Shown here: positions 18,569-28,708 of the stretch, piece after piece
How positions within the stretch are numbered: the stretch's first letter is position 1
How the letters are laid out: every line of letters starts with the position of its first letter
IMG/VR virus record: IMGVR_UViG_3300046167_000629
Span: 1 to 29,281 of that record
From: a virus
Length of the DNA stretch: 29,281 nt
Reading direction: 5' to 3' (one strand)
The notes under the pieces: model-generated
Seen by the model: the letters and a program-made list of their open reading frames with translations, nothing else
Database searches by the model: none
What the model was told of the DNA's origin: nothing
Program-made: the position numbers and the translations under genes

Positions 18569-18860
18569 CAGAAGACCCCCGCAGTTTATGCAGAAGGGTC
18601 TGCGGATCTCCGTAGTGATACCATTTGTTTTTACCGAAAACCCGCCATTTCTTACCGGACAGTGTAACGTGGTACTTCTGGTCTATTGTTAGGTGGTCAT
18701 GGTACACTCTGATACCGTCACCCCCCAAACGCAGAAACTCCAGAGCAAGCTCTAGCTTCGCTAGGTTTTTACTTGCGGTGTTATTGTAGCTAGTATCTGT
18801 CGCAGCCTTTTGCCGTGCGTTTGCTATTTCGGCCAGCAATGTTTCTTCATTATTCAGCAT
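18558..18860 (-). CDS. Hypothetical protein, 100 aa
   Basis: I start it at ATG 18860, which overlaps the helicase end by 11 bases; upstream codons in this frame lie inside the helicase gene. The N-terminal half is helical and Ala/Asn rich; the C-terminal half has alternating hydrophobic and aromatic residues (H-D-H-L-T-I-D, K-K-W-R-V-F-G-K-N-K-W-Y-H-Y-G) that suggest a small beta domain, possibly nucleic-acid binding because of its basic and aromatic content. No named family recognised. Confidence 0.6.
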   Translation of the reverse strand: MLNNEETLLAEIANARQKAATDTSYNNTASKNLAKLELALEFLRLGGDGIRVYHDHLTIDQKYHVTLSGKKWRVFGKNKWYHYGDPQTLLHKLRGSSDAE

Positions 18861-20067
18861 AGCGTGATACCTCTGGTTCGATTTTGCAGTAAATGGCACC
18901 GTGAAAACCTGAGAGCTTGTTCTTGGATATGTACAAACAACGCTCAGTGTTCTGTTCATCGTCGCCGCCGCCAGCGGCTTTACCGATACCGATGATTACG
19001 TCTGCTTCCGCAGCCTTGCCCGTCTTGGAGCCTTCAAGCATTGAGAAGTCGATGCGGGTCTTGCCCTCTGCATCAGCGGATGCCTGTGACACTGCAATCA
19101 CTGCACAGTTGTGTCGTTTGGCTACCTCACGCAAACTTCGGTACAACTCACGGATACGCTCATGCGAAGAGTTATAATTACCAGCAATGTGAACCTTATC
19201 CGCTTGGTCTATGATTAGGATGTCAGGCTTAATACGCTCACAGTAGGCGTTGATCTTATCAAGATCCCAATCTTGCGTGTCTTTAAAGATCAGCTTGTCC
19301 CGTATGCTCATATATACAGAATTTGCTAGGTCTGGCTTCTCTGCGATTTGCTCACGGGTCATGTTAGAACAAGCCTGCACAGCACGAAGCTTGGTACGCA
19401 TGCTCTTTTCTTCATTGCCCAGATACAGAACCTTGGCCCCTTGGCTACAGAACCCGCCGGGTGCAGCGCAGATGCTGACCATAAACGCTGACTTACCAGT
19501 TTCGGGTCGAGCCGCTACGATAGCAAAGTCACCGCCACCAAGGCCGTACAAGTGTCGGGACAGGGTAGAGATATTGAATGCGAACTTATTATCATCAGAA
19601 ACTTCTGCCAGAAGCTCATAAATATCATCAGTGATGTCTTCACCGAAATCATCTGGCATGTAGCTGTCTGAGATGCGCTCTAGGAGCGTCTGTAAGCGGC
19701 GTAGGGCGCTGGGATCACCCTCAGACATATTGATGCCCAAGTTGGCTACCTCACGCCCTATGTCCTTACGCCAGAGGTTGTTGATTACATCAGATGCAAT
19801 GTCAGAGCTTATAGCTTCTGCATGCTTGATCTGGTCTACAACGTCACGAACTTCGTGGATCTCAGCGGATGTAGCCACAGGGTTCTGTGACAGCCATAAG
19901 CTGTACACTTCATCCGGGCTAATATCATGTTCGTATTTGCCATGTGCTTCTTTGACCAAATCATAGATCGCTGCGAAATCGTCACTGAATAAACTACGCC
20001 GTAAGTTAGCCTGATTCTCTAAGTAAGTGGCGTTGTTCAGTATTGTTTTTATAAGCTGTTGCTCCAT
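18850..20067 (-). CDS. DnaB/T7 gp4-type replicative helicase
   Basis: A 405-aa helicase. After an N-terminal helical part comes the RecA-type core: Walker A A-R-P-E-T-G-K192-S, a G-N-E-E segment, Walker B I-L-I-I-D287-Q-A-D, and a V-I-A-V-S-Q-A-S sensor strand with an S-K-T-G-K-A-A-E-A-D stretch near the C-terminus. This is the DnaB/gp4 family that unwinds DNA ahead of the polymerase. No primase domain is fused; the primase is a separate gene upstream. I use ATG 20067, preceded by GAGGA and a leader that resembles that of the right-arm genes; the frame reaches 20139 but that would start beside a terminator hairpin. Confidence 0.9.
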   Translation of the reverse strand: MEQQLIKTILNNATYLENQANLRRSLFSDDFAAIYDLVKEAHGKYEHDISPDEVYSLWLSQNPVATSAEIHEVRDVVDQIKHAEAISSDIASDVINNLWRKDIGREVANLGINMSEGDPSALRRLQTLLERISDSYMPDDFGEDITDDIYELLAEVSDDNKFAFNISTLSRHLYGLGGGDFAIVAARPETGKSAFMVSICAAPGGFCSQGAKVLYLGNEEKSMRTKLRAVQACSNMTREQIAEKPDLANSVYMSIRDKLIFKDTQDWDLDKINAYCERIKPDILIIDQADKVHIAGNYNSSHERIRELYRSLREVAKRHNCAVIAVSQASADAEGKTRIDFSMLEGSKTGKAAEADVIIGIGKAAGGGDDEQNTERCLYISKNKLSGFHGAIYCKIEPEVSRYAE

Positions 20068-23920: not shown

Positions 23921-24058
23921 TGGTTTTCCTCAATTCATCACGGACTGCTACGATCAGGTCGATCAGTCTCTCAGTTGTTTGCTGCGCAGGCTTGCCTGTT
24001 AGCCGTTGCAGTTCTCGTTTCAAAGGCCTTTCCGGGCCTCAGTTACATCTTTGTTCAT
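23910..24058 (-). pseudogene. Small gene after integrase, apparently frameshifted
   Basis: The integrase TGA overlaps an ATG (ATGA at 24058) that opens M-N-K-D-V-T-E-A-R-K-G-L and then stops. One frame over, the sequence continues as a convincing helical stretch (K-R-E-L-Q-R-L-T-G-K, then E-R-L-I-D-L-I-V-A-V-R-D-E-L) to a TGA at 23910 that overlaps the next gene. Joining them needs one added or two removed bases near 24023, giving about 49 aa. Alternatively a TTG start with an AAGG site gives only the second part. Confidence 0.45.
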
Positions 24059-25134
24059 CCAAACCTCAGATTTTGGGCCGAAGAGGCCAGTTTCTTTGTC
24101 TTTTTGACGTAAATATTAAGCATTTGACGGGATTTATGGCCTGTAACCGCTGCAATCTGGTCTTCAGTTGCACCGTTCTCAGCCAATTCAGTTGCACCTG
24201 AGTGTCTCAGAAACTTAATCTTTAAGCGGTCAGGCAGCATGCAATGTTTGCGGATCTTCTGCGCAATCTCATTATACTTCCAGCGGTCATACGGTTTGCC
24301 TGTCTTCTCGTAAGTTACGATGGTTTCGTCTGCACCCGATTGGTTATGGCGAGGAACTATTCGGGAGATGATACGAGGGCTTGCATCTACAATGATGGGG
24401 GTCTTGGTCTTCTCCTGCACGAAGGTGAAGGTCTCACCATCAAAGTTGTCCCACCGTAGCTGACGCATGTCTCCGGGGCGCTGACAGAGGTCGTAGCAGA
24501 GCAAAGCCAGTGTACCTATAGACCAGTAGCCTAGCTCGTCAGAGGCCTCTACAAAGCGTGTTACCTGCCGTTCTGTCCACACAACGTCACAGATTGGGTC
24601 AGTGTCTAGCTGGATGATCTTAAACGGGTTGCCACGCAGCTTATCGTTCTGTTCGCATACATTCCAAACACGCTTGAGGAACTTAATGGTATGCCTTGCA
24701 CGGTGTGGCGATACTTCGTCCATCAAATAGGCGTACAGCTTCTGTACATGGTCTTTGCGCACGTTTTGAGCCAACATATCGATGAATAGAGTGCTTCCAG
24801 ACCCTAATTTGATCACAGAAAGCCCTTTTATTAGTTGATTGTAGGTGCGTTTACTGTTGTCAGCTAACCGTGACCAAGCCTGTGTCTGCTTATAGTAGCC
24901 TAACATGCCTAATACAGTGTTGCTGTTCACATAAACAATGTCATCTTTATCGGCTAGGTAGCGTTGGTGCAGAGAATCTATCTCCATGCACCGATGTACC
25001 GCATCAATCCGGGCATCAAACTGTTCAAAGCCTACCTGCAGGCGTTCCTTGATATATTGTGGTGGGTTAAACGCCCACTTTTCACTGCCATCACGCAGCT
25101 TGATCTGCTTGAGATACTTAATCTTGTTTGCCAT
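24055..25134 (-). CDS. int: Tyrosine recombinase (phage integrase)
   Basis: A 359-aa site-specific integrase. Catalytic set: R219 (C-Q-R-P-G-D-M-R), a K in E-K-T-K (242-244), R310 in F-L-R-H-S-G-A-T, H333 in G-H-K-S and the nucleophile Y342 (L-N-I-Y). At the usual H-x-x-R position the His is Lys (K-F-L-R). The first 180 residues form the arm and core-binding domains. I start at ATG 25134: GGAGG lies nine bases upstream, whereas the earlier ATG at 25140 is only three bases from it. The likely target is the host initiator tRNA gene, matching the attP-like core 2.4 kb away. A small-RNA candidate on the other strand, 100 bases upstream, could regulate it. Confidence 0.93.
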   Translation of the reverse strand: MANKIKYLKQIKLRDGSEKWAFNPPQYIKERLQVGFEQFDARIDAVHRCMEIDSLHQRYLADKDDIVYVNSNTVLGMLGYYKQTQAWSRLADNSKRTYNQLIKGLSVIKLGSGSTLFIDMLAQNVRKDHVQKLYAYLMDEVSPHRARHTIKFLKRVWNVCEQNDKLRGNPFKIIQLDTDPICDVVWTERQVTRFVEASDELGYWSIGTLALLCYDLCQRPGDMRQLRWDNFDGETFTFVQEKTKTPIIVDASPRIISRIVPRHNQSGADETIVTYEKTGKPYDRWKYNEIAQKIRKHCMLPDRLKIKFLRHSGATELAENGATEDQIAAVTGHKSRQMLNIYVKKTKKLASSAQNLRFG

Positions 25135-25157
25135 AATCATGGTCCTCCTAACTCATA

Positions 25158-25186
25158 ACCTAACTAAGTGGCATAAGAGATGTCAA
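25158..25186 (-). promoter_or_regulatory. Possible integrase promoter
   Basis: A perfect -35 TTGACA on the minus strand (25186-25181) lies about 50 bases before the integrase start; the -10 at 17-18 bases is weak (TTAGGT or TAGGTT). The spacer contains TGCCACTTAGT, also found in the promoter-like site at 15724-15753, so a regulator may act here. Confidence 0.4.
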
Positions 25187-25202: not shown

Positions 25203-25231
25203 TTGCACTTTGTTGGTATTCAGAGGATACT
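25203..25231 (+). promoter_or_regulatory. Promoter-like pair before the sRNA candidate
   Basis: TTGCAC (25203-25208), a 17-base spacer and GATACT (25226-25231). Seven bases after the -10, at 25238, the hairpin of the candidate RNA begins. Confidence 0.4.
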
Positions 25232-25237
25232 GATTCC

Positions 25238-25316
25238 AGAAGCACTCCCAACTCTGCTTCTACAATGTCCTCCCAGACTTGCCCCACGCCATTCTCCAGA
25301 CGGCGTGGGGTTTTTT
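25238..25316 (+). ncRNA. Candidate small regulatory RNA, about 79 nt
   Basis: The segment has the full architecture of a bacterial sRNA: a 5' hairpin with perfect seven-base arms AGAAGCA (25238-25244) and TGCTTCT (25255-25261) around a CTCCCAACTC loop, a single-stranded linker (25262-25281) and a strong terminator. The linker holds GTCCTCC, the exact complement of GGAGGAC in the integrase ribosome-binding region (25142-25148), which lies on the opposite strand nearby but is not the same locus. CU-rich anti-Shine-Dalgarno stretches in loops and linkers are known for several alphaproteobacterial sRNA families. No protein frame of note lies here. The call is an inference from structure; no expression evidence is available. 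Confidence 0.5.
25282..25316 (+). terminator. Strong rightward Rho-independent terminator
   Basis: Perfect nine-base arms CCCCACGCC (25282-25290) and GGCGTGGGG (25302-25310) followed by six T. No plus-strand protein gene precedes it for kilobases, so it most likely ends the short RNA at 25238. Confidence 0.85.
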
Positions 25317-25320
25317 CATT

Positions 25321-25343
25321 AAAAAAGGCTCCCAAAGGAGCCT
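25321..25343 (-). terminator. Leftward Rho-independent terminator
   Basis: Arms AGGCTCC (25326-25332) and GGAGCCT (25337-25343) with a CAAA loop; on the minus strand the stem is followed by a U run (25326-25321). It would end transcription of the small broken gene at 25403-25577 before the integrase. Confidence 0.8.
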
Positions 25344-25351
25344 CTTAGTTT

Positions 25352-25648
25352 TAAAACTACTCAGGCGTCAGATCATTATACACCTGTTATATATAGATAA
25401 TGTTACTTCACATGCGCCACAGTAGGCCAGTCATCAATACGATCACCTGTAGGAACGGAGATAGCTTTGTCGTTCAACAGTATAACTGACTGCGCTGTGT
25501 TTGTTTTAATTAAGTTATCTGAGGCATCTAGCAAAGCTTCTCCAAGCTCTTGCGCCTCTACAGGCGGTTAGAATCATTTTAGTACTCCATTTTAAGAATG
25601 TTCCCATTCTGTTCTAAAACTACTCGGGCGTCAAATCATAATACACCT
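25352..25648. repeat. 34-bp imperfect direct repeat flanking the broken small gene
   Basis: TAAAACTACTC-(A/G)-GGCGTCA-(G/A)-ATCAT-(T/A)-ATACACCT occurs at 25352-25385 and 25615-25648 with 31 of 34 bases identical. The two copies bracket the broken small gene at 25403-25577. On the minus strand the second copy contains TTGACG placed as a possible -35 box for that gene. Confidence 0.8.
25403..25577 (-). pseudogene. Frameshifted paralogue of the 58-aa gene at 8686
   Basis: ATG 25577, with GGAG eight bases upstream, starts M-I-L-T-A and soon runs out of frame. One frame over, from about 25563, the sequence reads V-E-A-Q-E-L-G-E-A-L-L-D-A-S and on to V-A-H-V-K and a TAA at 25403. Removing one T after the fifth codon gives an intact 57-aa protein whose start (M-I-L-T-A, E-L-G-E-A-L-L-D-A-S) matches that of the 58-aa gene (M-L-L-T-A, D-L-G-L-A-L-L-D-A-S). 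It has its own terminator (25321-25343) and is flanked by direct repeats. Confidence 0.6.
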
Positions 25649-25806
25649 CATTTACATGCACACATGTATATACAGATGCATGTATTAGTAAATGTATTAA
25701 TTAAGAGAAAAAAAATCTCCAAAAAAAAAAGGAATAAAGTGCTTTTAGAATCGTTTTAGTAGGCGTTTAATAAGGGCAGGCCACGACCAAAAACTAAACG
25801 GCCTGC
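25649..25806. other. AT-rich control region before the right-arm genes
   Basis: No gene seen. It has a very AT-rich block with an A run (25700-25735), a word TTAGAATCGTTTTAGTA (25745-25761) also present as TTAGAATCATTTTAGTA at about 25569-25585, a possible -10 TTTAAT near 25766, then TAAGGGCAGG and a perfect hairpin GCAGGCC/GGCCTGC (25776-25782 with 25800-25806). It likely contains the promoter for the plus-strand right arm. Confidence 0.45.
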
Positions 25807-25840
25807 AATTAAAACCGAAACAAAAGGAAACGACCAAATG
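25807..25840 (+). promoter_or_regulatory. Repeated leader, copy before the gp88-like gene
   Basis: AATTAAAACCGAAA, AAAGGAAA ribosome-binding site, then CGACCAAATG including the start codon. A perfect hairpin (25776-25806) ends exactly where this leader begins. Confidence 0.65.
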
Positions 25841-26560
25841 AAACTTTTAAGCACAAACGCAAACAACACGAAAATCCGCAAAAGCCAAAAGGAAAGCGGC
25901 TTGCGCATTGCAAGCTTATCCCTATATCCCGATGATTTAATCTGCAGTGGTGCAAAGCTTGCCCTTTGCATGAAGCCTTGTCTTAAAGATGCAGGCTTTG
26001 GAGCTTTCCCAAATGTAAAAGATGGCCGGCAATTAAAAACGGATTTTTATTTAAATGATCAAAAGGGATTTTTAAAACAGCTCATAAAAGAAATGCGCAA
26101 TTTTGTGGCTCTATGTAAAAAGACCGGCGAAAGCCCTGCTTTCCGATTAAATACCATTTCGGATATTGATTGGACTAAACACGGGATTCCGCAAATGTTC
26201 CCGGAAGCCTATTTTTACGATTATACAAAAGTTGCGGCAAGGCTTGGCCGTACCCCGGAAAATTATGATCTGATATTTTCCTACTCACAAAACCCCGCAT
26301 ATCAAAAACAAGTTAACCGGGCATTGCAAACCGATGCACCGCTTGCCGTAGTGTTTCGGGATTTTGTGCCGGTTGGCTCATACTTTTTAGGGCGGGAAAT
26401 AATCGACGGGGATAAATCAGATATTTTGAACCAAAAGCAAAAAGGAAAAGTGATTGGGCTAAGATTAAAAGGGCATGCAGCACAAAAAAGCAAAAGCCTA
26501 TTTATAGTAGAGCCAAGCCAAGCTTGCCCCGCCCCGTCATATGCAATCGCTGCAGAGTGA
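25838..26560 (+). CDS. Gp88/DUF7227-like protein, 240 aa
   Basis: The sequence follows the pattern I recall for phage gp88-like (DUF7227) proteins: M-K-L-L-S-T at the start, cysteines C36, C44 and C48 in a C-x7-C-x3-C set, then F-R-L-N-x-x-S-D-I-D-W, Y-F-Y-D-Y-T-K, V-V-F-R-D, I-D-G-D-K-S-D and V-I-G-L-R-L-K-G. The function of this family is not established; the Cys set could bind a metal. Found mainly in phages and mobile DNA. The start is fixed by the leader with a strong AAAGGAAA site. Confidence 0.7.
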   Translation: MKLLSTNANNTKIRKSQKESGLRIASLSLYPDDLICSGAKLALCMKPCLKDAGFGAFPNVKDGRQLKTDFYLNDQKGFLKQLIKEMRNFVALCKKTGESPAFRLNTISDIDWTKHGIPQMFPEAYFYDYTKVAARLGRTPENYDLIFSYSQNPAYQKQVNRALQTDAPLAVVFRDFVPVGSYFLGREIIDGDKSDILNQKQKGKVIGLRLKGHAAQKSKSLFIVEPSQACPAPSYAIAAE

Positions 26561-26574
26561 AGGGGGCCGGGATT

Positions 26575-26805
26575 ATGACCGATAAAATAAACGTGCAATT
26601 AAGCCGGGAACAAGCTTGCTATGTGTTGGAAACTTTGACGCAAGAATATCAGTTTGCAGAGCCATGCTTTGATGATCAACCATCATTAAAACATCACATA
26701 ACAAATATGCAAACAATGTTGGCGATTAGTGAGTCACTAGGAATCGAAAATTGGTTCCGATTAGATGCCGCCGAAATGCTCGAAAGAATAAGGGGGCCGG
26801 AATAG
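26575..26805 (+). CDS. Hypothetical protein, 76 aa
   Basis: I start at ATG 26575, behind the G-rich AGGGGGCCGGG stretch that also precedes the next tiny frame; codons upstream in this frame overlap the gp88-like gene. The protein is mainly helical: L-S-R-E-Q-A-C-Y-V-L-E-T-L, then a short loop and two more helices ending A-A-E-M-L-E-R-I-R. No family recognised; small helical proteins of this kind are common in the accessory regions of phages. Confidence 0.6.
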   Translation: MTDKINVQLSREQACYVLETLTQEYQFAEPCFDDQPSLKHHITNMQTMLAISESLGIENWFRLDAAEMLERIRGPE

Positions 26806-26806
26806 C

Positions 26807-26875
26807 ATGGCCCCGGTTTATCAATTAGTGGGTTTTTGTGTCCTATGGTTTTGGCTATTAGATGCGCTTTTCTAA
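26807..26875 (+). CDS. Tiny hydrophobic peptide, 22 aa
   Basis: ATG 26807, one base after the previous stop, with the same AGGGGGCCGGA context upstream. The product is one short hydrophobic stretch (V-G-F-C-V-L-W-F-W-L-L) that could span or anchor to a membrane. Very short, so it may be chance. Confidence 0.3.
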   Translation: MAPVYQLVGFCVLWFWLLDALF

Positions 26876-26921
26876 CTGGCACAATAAAATGGCTTTATTA
26901 ATGCAGCGAATCGGATATAGT

Positions 26922-26978
26922 AAGGGCAGGGCGCAAGCTTTGCCCTTTTACTTTTAAACCGAAAGGATCGACCAAATG
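26922..26978 (+). promoter_or_regulatory. Hairpin plus repeated leader before the 58-aa gene
   Basis: TATAGT-AAGGGCAGG, a perfect hairpin AAGGGCA/TGCCCTT (26922-26928 with 26941-26947), then TTTTAAACCGAAAGGAT-CGACCAAATG ending in the start codon at 26976. TAAGGGCAGG is shared with the region before the gp88-like gene. Confidence 0.6.
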
Positions 26979-27152
26979 ACCAAAGCACAAACAAAACAAA
27001 TGCAAATGGCAGCGGGTCACTTAACCGCTAACAATTCAGAAGCTTTCTTGCGTTCTGTTTCTGCAATTATCCGGGCCGCAAGAACGCAAAAGCAAATTGA
27101 TGCAATCAAAGAAGCCGCATTTGACCTGCAATTTTCCAAAGGGGGCAAATGA
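26976..27152 (+). CDS. Hypothetical protein, 58 aa
   Basis: The start is fixed by the repeated leader. The product is basic, Ala/Gln rich and helical (M-T-K-A-Q-T-K-Q-M-Q-M, then S-A-I-I-R-A-A-R-T-Q-K-Q-I-D-A-I). Its TGA overlaps the next ATG, so the two genes are coupled. No family recognised; size and charge would suit a nucleic-acid-binding or regulatory protein, without direct evidence. Confidence 0.6.
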   Translation: MTKAQTKQMQMAAGHLTANNSEAFLRSVSAIIRAARTQKQIDAIKEAAFDLQFSKGGK

Positions 27153-27367
27153 TGTTTGTTCTTAAATGTAGCCACGCATCATATATTTACAGCGCCCCCC
27201 GCAAAAACAGAAAAGAGGGCTGTTGCGTAACAGAATATAAAAGCGAAGCTCTGCAATTCAAAACAGAAGCCGCCGCCAAAGCTTGGCTTGCCGATGTTAA
27301 AAACGCTCAAAGGGCTTTTGGCTTCAAAGCTTATCAATTGGTAAGCGCATATCCTGCAAATGCTTAG
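27149..27367 (+). CDS. Hypothetical protein, 72 aa
   Basis: Starts by overlap with the previous stop (ATGA). An N-terminal beta-like stretch with C-S-H-A-S-Y-I-Y is followed by a basic loop, then a helix (T-E-A-A-A-K-A-W-L-A-D-V-K-N-A) and a final strand. This small alpha/beta layout is of unknown function, and no family is recognised. A large hairpin follows six bases after the stop. Confidence 0.55.
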   Translation: MMFVLKCSHASYIYSAPRKNRKEGCCVTEYKSEALQFKTEAAAKAWLADVKNAQRAFGFKAYQLVSAYPANA

Positions 27368-27372
27368 ATTTT

Positions 27373-27411
27373 AGCCCTTAGCCCCCCTGCAACATCGGGG
27401 GGCCTTGGGCT
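27373..27411 (+). terminator. Large GC-rich hairpin after the 72-aa gene
   Basis: AGCCC-tta-GCCCCCC pairs with GGGGGGC-ctt-GGGCT around a TGCAACATC loop. There is no T run, so it may be a weak terminator, a processing site, or the upstream hairpin of the next leader. Confidence 0.45.
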
Positions 27412-27425
27412 GCAATCCTGCAGCG

Positions 27426-27453
27426 ATTAAAACCGAAGGAAACTGACCAAATG
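27426..27453 (+). promoter_or_regulatory. Repeated leader before the DUF932 gene
   Basis: ATTAAAACCGAAGGAAAC then TGACCAAATG, ending in the start codon at 27451. The hairpin at 27373-27411 lies just upstream. Confidence 0.65.
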
Positions 27454-28338
27454 CCCTTAGACCTAATCATCACCCGTAAAGAAACCGCCGCCGCTATGGA
27501 ATTGTCAGAAATTGCTGACATCTGCCCGGCGGTGTTAACAGAAACCGCCGCCCCGGAAACATCGGGCCGCTATGGCTTTATCAATACGATGCAAGCCATG
27601 CAGATCCTTGGCGATTATGGTTTTCGCCCAACACAAGCCACGCAGCGCCCATCCCGCAATTCAGCACACCGGCCATATGCCATGCATGCAATAAGCTTTG
27701 CGCATGATAGTGACCTAAACGAGAACAACAAAGACTCCCGCCCAGAAATCATTCTGTACAATTCACATGATGCTAAGTCGGCGCTGAAATTATTCTCAGG
27801 CTGTTTTCGGTTCATTTGCAGCAATGGAATCGTGGCGGGAAATGGCTTCCAAAGCAAAATGCGGCACAGCCACACAACCGCAAACGGCTTTGAATCTATG
27901 CTCAAAGATACCGCCGCCAATCTGCCCCGCATGATGCAGCGAGTCAGCGCATTGCAAGAGACCACCGTCGATGATGAAGCGGCCATAGATTTTGCTTACA
28001 ATGCCGCCGCTTTGCGGTGGGAACAAATGCCGCAAGATATGGGCGGGAATATTCTGCCATCGGAACAAGCCAAGCCGGGCGCATACTTTGACCACCAAAC
28101 CGTGCGAGATATGTTTGCGGCCAATCGCTATGCAGACATGGGACACACAGCTTGGCTTGTATTTAACCGCATCCAAGAAAATATCATGCGGGGTGGCCCT
28201 TCCATTGTCTCACTTACTAGCAGAGCCAAGGAAACCGGGCAGGGATGGAAATTGCGCAAGTCTAAAGCAATAACTTCCCTGCCCAAAACAATCGACGTGA
28301 ACCGCAAGTTATGGGATCTGGCAGATGCGTTGGCTTGA
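27451..28338 (+). CDS. DUF932 (phage/plasmid-like) protein, 295 aa
   Basis: Recognised by I-L-Y-N-S-H-D-A-K-S-A-L-K-L-F (101-115) and F-S-G-C-F-R-F-I-C-S-N-G-I-V-A-G (115-130), the core of the DUF932 family, together with the preceding R-P-Y-A-M-H-A-I-S-F strand. DUF932 proteins are found on plasmids, phages and integrative elements; their biochemical role is unknown. The C-terminal third is helical with W-L-V-F-N-R-I-Q-E-N. The start is fixed by the leader. Its end overlaps a small membrane-protein gene. Confidence 0.8.
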   Translation: MPLDLIITRKETAAAMELSEIADICPAVLTETAAPETSGRYGFINTMQAMQILGDYGFRPTQATQRPSRNSAHRPYAMHAISFAHDSDLNENNKDSRPEIILYNSHDAKSALKLFSGCFRFICSNGIVAGNGFQSKMRHSHTTANGFESMLKDTAANLPRMMQRVSALQETTVDDEAAIDFAYNAAALRWEQMPQDMGGNILPSEQAKPGAYFDHQTVRDMFAANRYADMGHTAWLVFNRIQENIMRGGPSIVSLTSRAKETGQGWKLRKSKAITSLPKTIDVNRKLWDLADALA

Positions 28339-28426
28339 TCTGATCGGGGACTGCATCGGGGCGGTGGCGGTTTTTGCCACCCCCTTAATCGCCCTCTATG
28401 TCGCTTATGGCTTAGGCCTAACTTAA
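28325..28426 (+). CDS. Small single-span membrane protein, 33 aa
   Basis: ATG 28325 lies inside the end of the DUF932 gene. The product M-R-W-L-D-L-I-G-D-C-I-G-A-V is followed by a hydrophobic stretch ending Y-V-A-Y-G-L-G-L-T. I have seen similar L-I-G-D-x-I-G plus G-Y-G-L-G peptides in Rhodobacteraceae prophages, which supports it. Function unknown. The next leader begins at its stop. Confidence 0.5.
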   Translation: MRWLDLIGDCIGAVAVFATPLIALYVAYGLGLT

Positions 28427-28450
28427 AACCGAAAAGGAACTGACCAAATG
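28424..28450 (+). promoter_or_regulatory. Repeated leader before the Fis-type gene
   Basis: TTAAAACCGAAAAGGAAC then TGACCAAATG, ending in the start codon at 28448; its first bases are the stop of the membrane peptide. Confidence 0.65.
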
Positions 28451-28708
28451 CAAATAGTAATAAATCTAGATGATATACTGAATCAAAAAACCGTGCGGGA
28501 AACTCTTAAAATAGATCAGCCGTTGGAATTATCAGATGAGCCGCTGGCAGATGATTTTGACTTAACAAAAGCCCATCTAGAAGTGGATCGGCACTATTTA
28601 GGGATGGCCCTCAAACAATCAAACGGAAAGACTCGAGAAGCCGCCCGGCTTGTTCACTTGTCCCATCAAACATTTAAAAATCGATGGTTTCGGGTTAGAT
28701 ACATGTGA
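28448..28708 (+). CDS. Fis-type helix-turn-helix protein, 86 aa
   Basis: The C-terminal half (about residues 47-82) shows H-Y-L-G-M-A-L-K-Q-S-N-G-K-T-R-E-A-A-R-L-V-H-L-S followed by a recognition helix (H-Q-T-F-K-N-R-W), the Fis/NtrC C-terminal HTH pattern. The N-terminal half is acidic and has no recognised domain; there is no sigma-54 ATPase part. It is likely a DNA-binding regulator, perhaps of this right arm. A terminator follows 28 bases after the stop. Confidence 0.7.
   Translation: MQIVINLDDILNQKTVRETLKIDQPLELSDEPLADDFDLTKAHLEVDRHYLGMALKQSNGKTREAARLVHLSHQTFKNRWFRVRYM

Follow-up and report, generated by a model that had tools for sequence, protein, structure and literature searches.

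A conserved locus beside the tyrosine integrase gene of an HMO-2011-type roseophage probably represents a new family of phage-borne anti-Shine-Dalgarno (anti-SD) small RNAs (sRNAs) that represses translation of the integrase and, in some lineages, of the replicative helicase. More specifically, we give roughly even chances to the element being a phage-encoded, trans-acting sRNA of about 79 nt that pairs with the ribosome-binding region of its own integrase and, in several lineages, of the helicase, blocking ribosome entry. The DNA analysed is a stretch of 29,281 bases from IMG/VR (the window), which its sequence identifies as part of the genome of an HMO-2011-type roseophage; the nearest cultured relatives of its integrase and DNA polymerase are found in Roseobacter phages CRP-235, CRP-212, CRP-3 and CRP-738 (HMO-2011 type). 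The parts of the predicted sRNA gene and its candidate targets are:

25203..25231, + strand: promoter-like pair TTGCAC (25203-25208) and GATACT (25226-25231) with a 17-nt spacer; read in the sequence, and the pair recurs in relatives
25238..25316, + strand: predicted sRNA of about 79 nt; layout conserved in relatives, covariation
25238..25261, + strand: 5' hairpin AGAAGCA/TGCTTCT, 7 bp and perfect, with CU-rich loop CTCCCAACTC; base-pair covariation
25262..25281, + strand: predicted single-stranded linker of 20 nt with the anti-SD word GUCCUCCC (25267-25274); sequence, motif enrichment
25282..25316, + strand: intrinsic terminator CCCCACGCC/GGCGTGGGG, 9 bp, 25282-25310, then T6 to 25316; descriptor scan, covariation
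24055..25140, - strand: tyrosine integrase, predicted main target; phrog_1 (E=8e-33), own-vs-swapped pairing test
complement of 25142-25148, - strand: integrase SD sequence GGAGGAC
18850..20067, - strand (likely start 20067): replicative DNA helicase, second candidate target; leaders found by tblastn, own-vs-swapped test, GAGGAC in the leader

The 5' hairpin starts 7 nt downstream of the -10 hexamer, and the linker word GTCCTCC (25267-25273) can form a GUCCUCC:GGAGGAC pairing with the phage's own integrase start. An earlier note on this DNA had described the promoter-like pair, the perfect hairpin, the 20-nt linker and the terminator in a place with no plus-strand gene, and had recognized GTCCTCC as the complement of GGAGGAC in the integrase SD region; every part lies where it was described, and the complementarity is read directly in the sequence. 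No plus-strand open reading frame of at least 60 aa overlaps the element, and no tRNA was found. The first loop, which the same note called CU-rich, is so in containing the core CTCCC, but the full motif is absent from it. The TTGCAC/GATACT pair was not listed by the promoter scanner, the second hexamer GATACT being below the scanner threshold, and the promoter evidence is therefore comparative.

The locus lies on the plus strand between the integrase gene (- strand) and a second terminator at 25326-25343, is divergent from the integrase, and from promoter to terminator is free of any gene. The integrase mRNA would start from the minus strand, with TTGACA upstream of an ATG at 25140/25134, and the predicted sRNA at about 25238 on the plus strand; the integrase promoter region holds a conserved TTGAC and GCCACTTAGTTA, which point away from the sRNA. 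Since the predicted transcripts are divergent and do not overlap, a cis-antisense RNA was rejected, and the label "antisense-type" of the earlier note does not hold in its strict sense: pairing would be in trans. Downstream are plus-strand genes of phrog_1617 and phrog_12094 (25400-25657; 25838-28708). A small minus-strand gene of the CRP gp01 type adjoins the sRNA in relatives; in the window it seems to be broken near 25560. Window positions 25348-25394 and 25611-25657 form a direct repeat (83%) around AAAACTACTC(A/G)GGCGTCA(A/G)ATCAT; most relatives carry a word resembling it, ACTCGCACGTCA, shortly beyond the sRNA terminators, and G023 and G026 have two copies about 215-250 nt apart. A further word, TGCCAC(C/T)TA, is present in the integrase promoter region and, inverted, upstream of the helicase in many relatives (window positions 25166-25176 and about 20105), and may possibly be an operator shared by the two genes. 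CRP-3, CRP-235 and CRP-738 share an unannotated gap of 750-860 nt, located at one and the same place in the three genomes (L118:48353-49212, L241:48878-49632 and L243:44900-45707).

Integrase-anchored IMG/VR scans, together with three isolates (CRP-3, CRP-212 and CRP-235), yielded homologous regions of about 57 distinct sequences. The full layout, in which a divergent promoter-like pair is followed by a 5' hairpin, unpaired CU-rich sequence and a terminator, recurs in the same place in nearly all of them. The promoter-like pair is present in 45 of 57 distinct sequences versus 5.4 expected from shuffles (37 versus 2.3 in its strict form), TCCTCCC in 27 of 52 sRNA bodies versus 1.4 expected, and CTCCC in 44 of 52 versus 12.5 expected. 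The 5' hairpins score above dinucleotide shuffles (Fisher 5e-9, 17 groups). In a 15-sequence alignment, 99.2% of the paired cells hold standard pairs, and 21 cells are double-changed versus 6.4, a count reached by 0 of 500 shuffles; both positions have changed in six pairs, and in the terminator this applies to four of nine pairs. These counts refer to the alignable lineages, as the raw MAFFT alignment of the hairpin is not stem-aware. Layout, conservation, covariation of hairpin and terminator and the conserved promoter-like pair are thus computed features of the family, as is the own-lineage complementarity to integrase starts described below. Among close relatives, where the earlier note had named in advance the loss of hairpin or linker beside a kept terminator as evidence against its proposal, the hairpin is kept by all and GTCCTCC by 8 of 9. 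Distant relatives have other words in place of GTCCTCC, and in distant lineages the stems are wholly different while the loop retains CUCCC or UCCUCCC. The position of the CU-rich word also varies: it is found in loop 1 or the linker and, in one lineage, in the loop of the terminator. The CCUCCC motif is present twice in the CRP-212/L117 types, and most others have one motif hairpin, with variable stems and a conserved loop.

A descriptor consisting of CCTCCC plus a terminator, applied to the window and the first 50 kb of each of the three isolate genomes, matched exactly once each in the window, CRP-3, CRP-235 and CRP-212, always at the integrase-adjacent sRNA site. The same scan found no element in HMO-2011, CRP-1, CRP-207 or HTVC033P, the last of which lacks an integrase; in CRP-738 it picked up just a terminator at another place, directly after a reading frame. 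This pattern of presence and absence suggests that the sRNA gene is lineage-specific and largely confined to CRP-3-like integrase-bearing phages; CRP-3 belongs to subgroup III (PMC9038755). The unrelated 29-31 kb roseophages CRP-823, CRP-821, CRP-822 and CRP-831 have an arrangement of TTGACA..TATAAC, CTTCCTCCCCAAGACTTGCCCCACGCC and a terminator (L119:2924-3048, + strand, in CRP-823); this element shows 78% identity over about 50 nt to the 3' half of the window sRNA and is divergent from a primase/helicase gene.

The predicted sRNA has the sequence-level marks of a trans-acting anti-SD sRNA, namely a promoter-like pair, an accessible word and an intrinsic terminator. Rfam gave zero matches in the window at the gathering threshold, the weaker matches being chance-sized, and the open-licence literature searched did not describe an sRNA beside the integrase in these phages. 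The alphaproteobacterial anti-SD sRNA families invoked by the earlier note are comparable in kind (cuckoo RNAs, SmelC671; PMC3927594). The cuckoo RNAs (SmelA075/SmelA099 models; CcsR1-4 of Rhodobacter sphaeroides) occur in Alphaproteobacteria, to which the hosts of these phages belong, and like the phage sRNA they are short, with a conserved anti-SD loop and freely varying stems. Each of their three or four hairpins has a CCUCCUCCC loop, and they occur in several copies per genome (PMC3927594, PMC10253847), whereas the phage sRNA is a single copy beside the integrase with a shorter word whose place shifts among loop 1, linker and terminator loop; CCTCCTCCC occurs in 1 of 57 distinct phage sRNAs and is absent from the window. 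Some cuckoo-type RNAs lie in a DUF1127 (ccaF1) operon, while the phage sRNA is divergent from the integrase with its own promoter-like pair and does not share the co-transcription with a DUF1127 gene that marks CcsR/CIN1. SmelC671 of Rhizobiales, compared by description only, resembles the phage sRNA in having CUCCCUGU unpaired between hairpins that vary, with the terminator as the final one (PMC3927594), and differs in being chromosomal. The anti-hemB RNA (RF02837), a Burkholderia family, similarly has a 5' hairpin with loop UCUCCUCCCUG, a linker and a terminator; against its covariance model the CRP-235 sRNA scores 19.1 bits and the window 11.3 bits (E = 3.3), below the curated cut-off of 49.5, so that the resemblance is at the level of layout only. 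Because it fails both the CCUCCUCCC loop test and the anti-hemB cut-off, the phage element is filed in neither family: as far as its sequence tells, it is an anti-SD sRNA by kind and a member of neither the cuckoo nor the anti-hemB family. Phages P1/P7 encode the c4 RNA, which pairs near the ribosome-binding site of a phage gene and blocks its translation (PMC12197685), as is proposed for the present sRNA; compared by description, its target (ant), position and structure are different.

Betaproteobacteria (Rhodoferax, Nitrosospira, Methylotenera and others; genome_contigs loci L121-L200) have many instances of hairpin-type UUCCUCCCUG followed by a terminator, and these elements are probably anti-hemB-like RNAs extending well beyond Burkholderia. 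In Roseovarius aestuarii (L154:3701-3762, - strand), CTGG-TAAAGTTTTCCTCCCTG-CCAG plus a terminator directly follows a LysR-type gene and is possibly a 3'-UTR anti-SD sRNA; with its terminator just behind that gene, it was rejected as a clear relative of the phage sRNA.

The GTCCTCC/GGAGGAC match is weak evidence by itself because any strong SD sequence fits an anti-SD word. In the window alone, cofolding with the integrase leader was marginally better than with shuffled leaders (p = 0.08), near what any anti-SD word gives, and p was 0.19 for the helicase. Each sRNA was therefore compared with its own and with other lineages' targets, in a permutation test over lineages that corrects for row and column effects. 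With a perfect-helix score, which was chosen after the data were looked at, the integrase gave z = -4.3, p < 5e-5 (17 groups) and z = -4.0, p = 1e-4 (18 groups). With one representative per group, p was at most 7e-4 in 20 of 20 draws, and leave-one-out z ranged from -3.6 to -4.8; at a coarser grouping (60% identity, 10 groups) of these related lineages, p was 0.01. Controls with the other strand and the reversed sRNA were null for the integrase. Of the 32 gene families tested, two alone stand out, the integrase with p = 0.0014 and the replicative helicase with p = 0.0026, and cofolding against shuffled leaders across lineages gave Fisher values of 0.0012 and 0.0003, respectively. Examples are UAGCCCUAC:GUAGGGCUA in L047, UCUCCCUA:UAGGGAGA in L101, AACUCCCU:AGGGAGUU in L109 and ACCUCAC:GUGAGGU in L108. 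Integrase matches are poor in some groups (L048, L058, CRP-235 and CRP-3), and the only two wholly new groups of the validation scan, L338 and L361, had no good match; the L361 RNA may not be the same sRNA. Exclusion of the integrase on the ground that its SD sequences differ between phages proved wrong, as the sRNA words match these differences in several lineages. Tail-fibre leaders, in which CAGGGAG fits the conserved CUCCCUG, were rejected for want of an own-lineage excess (perfect-helix p = 0.66). The integrase is thus a moderately supported, predicted target, and the earlier proposal that the sRNA blocks its translation survives on the comparison across lineages, in which the integrase is the best-supported target, rather than on the single-phage match.

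A different reading, which we consider somewhat unlikely, is that the sRNA acts mainly on host mRNAs as a mimic of host anti-SD sRNAs of the cuckoo/CcsR type, lowering many genes with strong SD sequences, and that the integrase match is a by-product of a generic word. The conserved core UCCUCCC(UG) does overlap the alphaproteobacterial motifs (CCUCCUCCC loops and SmelC671 CUCCCUGU; PMC3927594), and the betaproteobacterial RNAs have the same layout. Such a mimic would, however, predict neither the own-lineage-specific integrase pairing nor the sRNAs of L084 and L096, which lack UCCUCCC yet have other phage-matching words.

Less probable still is that the replicative helicase is the main target, in which case the sRNA would act as a brake on phage replication and the integrase would be a secondary or incidental target. 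The longest single sRNA matches are indeed to helicase leaders: UGCCUCAUCC:GGAUGAGGCA in CRP-235 (10 nt), CUCUUCCUUGCU:AGCAAGGGAGAG in L070 (12 pairs including G-U) and UUGCUAGUG:CACUAGCAA in L084/L096 (9 nt). The helicase leader also ranks high among genome-wide windows (Fisher 6e-9, uncorrected for relatedness or SD content), and the similar element of the unrelated CRP-823 is just upstream of, and divergent from, primase/helicase. In the 47-kb L090 genome, the helicase leader and the strand opposite the sRNA are the only places with CACTAGCAA. At the coarser grouping (60% identity, 10 groups), however, the helicase result is not significant (p = 0.32), in the enlarged set its other-strand control itself reaches 0.03, and the helicase match in the window is modest. 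The case for the helicase as main target is weakened by these controls, and as a target the helicase is therefore a lead.

We assign a low probability to the element being only a terminator pair and promoter/operator DNA without a functional RNA, its CU-rich words serving as DNA sites such as integrase arm sites. Inverted repeats are common near integrases, and the second terminator at 25326-25343 would suit this explanation. Against it are the RNA-type covariation in hairpin and terminator, the persistence of the motif in loops as stems turn over, and the own-lineage integrase pairing on the sRNA strand only, the other-strand control being null. The attachment site is also elsewhere: CRP-3 integrates at a host tRNA-Met gene, and its experimentally mapped site lies between 2829 and 3662, where the attL-R/attR-F primers map, over 2 kb from the sRNA, for which reason attP was rejected (PMC6918029). 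Very improbable is an sRNA that, instead of pairing to phage mRNA, soaks up host RNA-binding proteins or other sRNAs as a decoy or sponge: loops that present the same word repeatedly would suit this role, but it does not predict own-lineage integrase pairing.

On the preferred reading of a trans-acting sRNA, we infer transcription of the locus and binding in cells, along with any role of Hfq. The sRNA would be transcribed divergently from the integrase gene, linked to its target but acting in trans. Its 5' hairpin and 3' terminator would keep the CU-rich anti-SD word single-stranded, and this word would cover the SD sequence of the integrase mRNA, and of the helicase mRNA in some lineages, keeping ribosomes off; repression rather than activation is suggested by the position of the pairing. 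Integration/excision and phage replication would then be held low while the sRNA promoter is on, which may provide a dial in the temperate life cycle and so a role in the lysis-lysogeny choice. Beyond the earlier note, the sequences point to the breadth of the family, to the helicase as a second candidate target and to the resemblance to alpha- and betaproteobacterial anti-SD sRNAs.

HMO-2011-type phages have been described as dominant and widespread in the ocean (PMC9038755); among them, CRP-3 is the one whose integration has been demonstrated experimentally (PMC6918029). No description of how HMO-2011-type phages choose between lysis and lysogeny was found in the literature searched, and a conserved sRNA with a pairing word that changes in parallel with the integrase start is a concrete, testable candidate regulator. 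It is a tentative further idea, to which we attach rather little confidence, that one anti-SD RNA co-evolves with the starts of both the integrase and the replicative helicase, coupling integration and replication in an RNA-based lysis-lysogeny control within a phage group that ranks among the most abundant in the sea. If the proposed function is true, the anti-SD sRNA design of hosts would also be used by phages, and these phages would offer naturally occurring sRNA-target pairs in which both partners change in concert.
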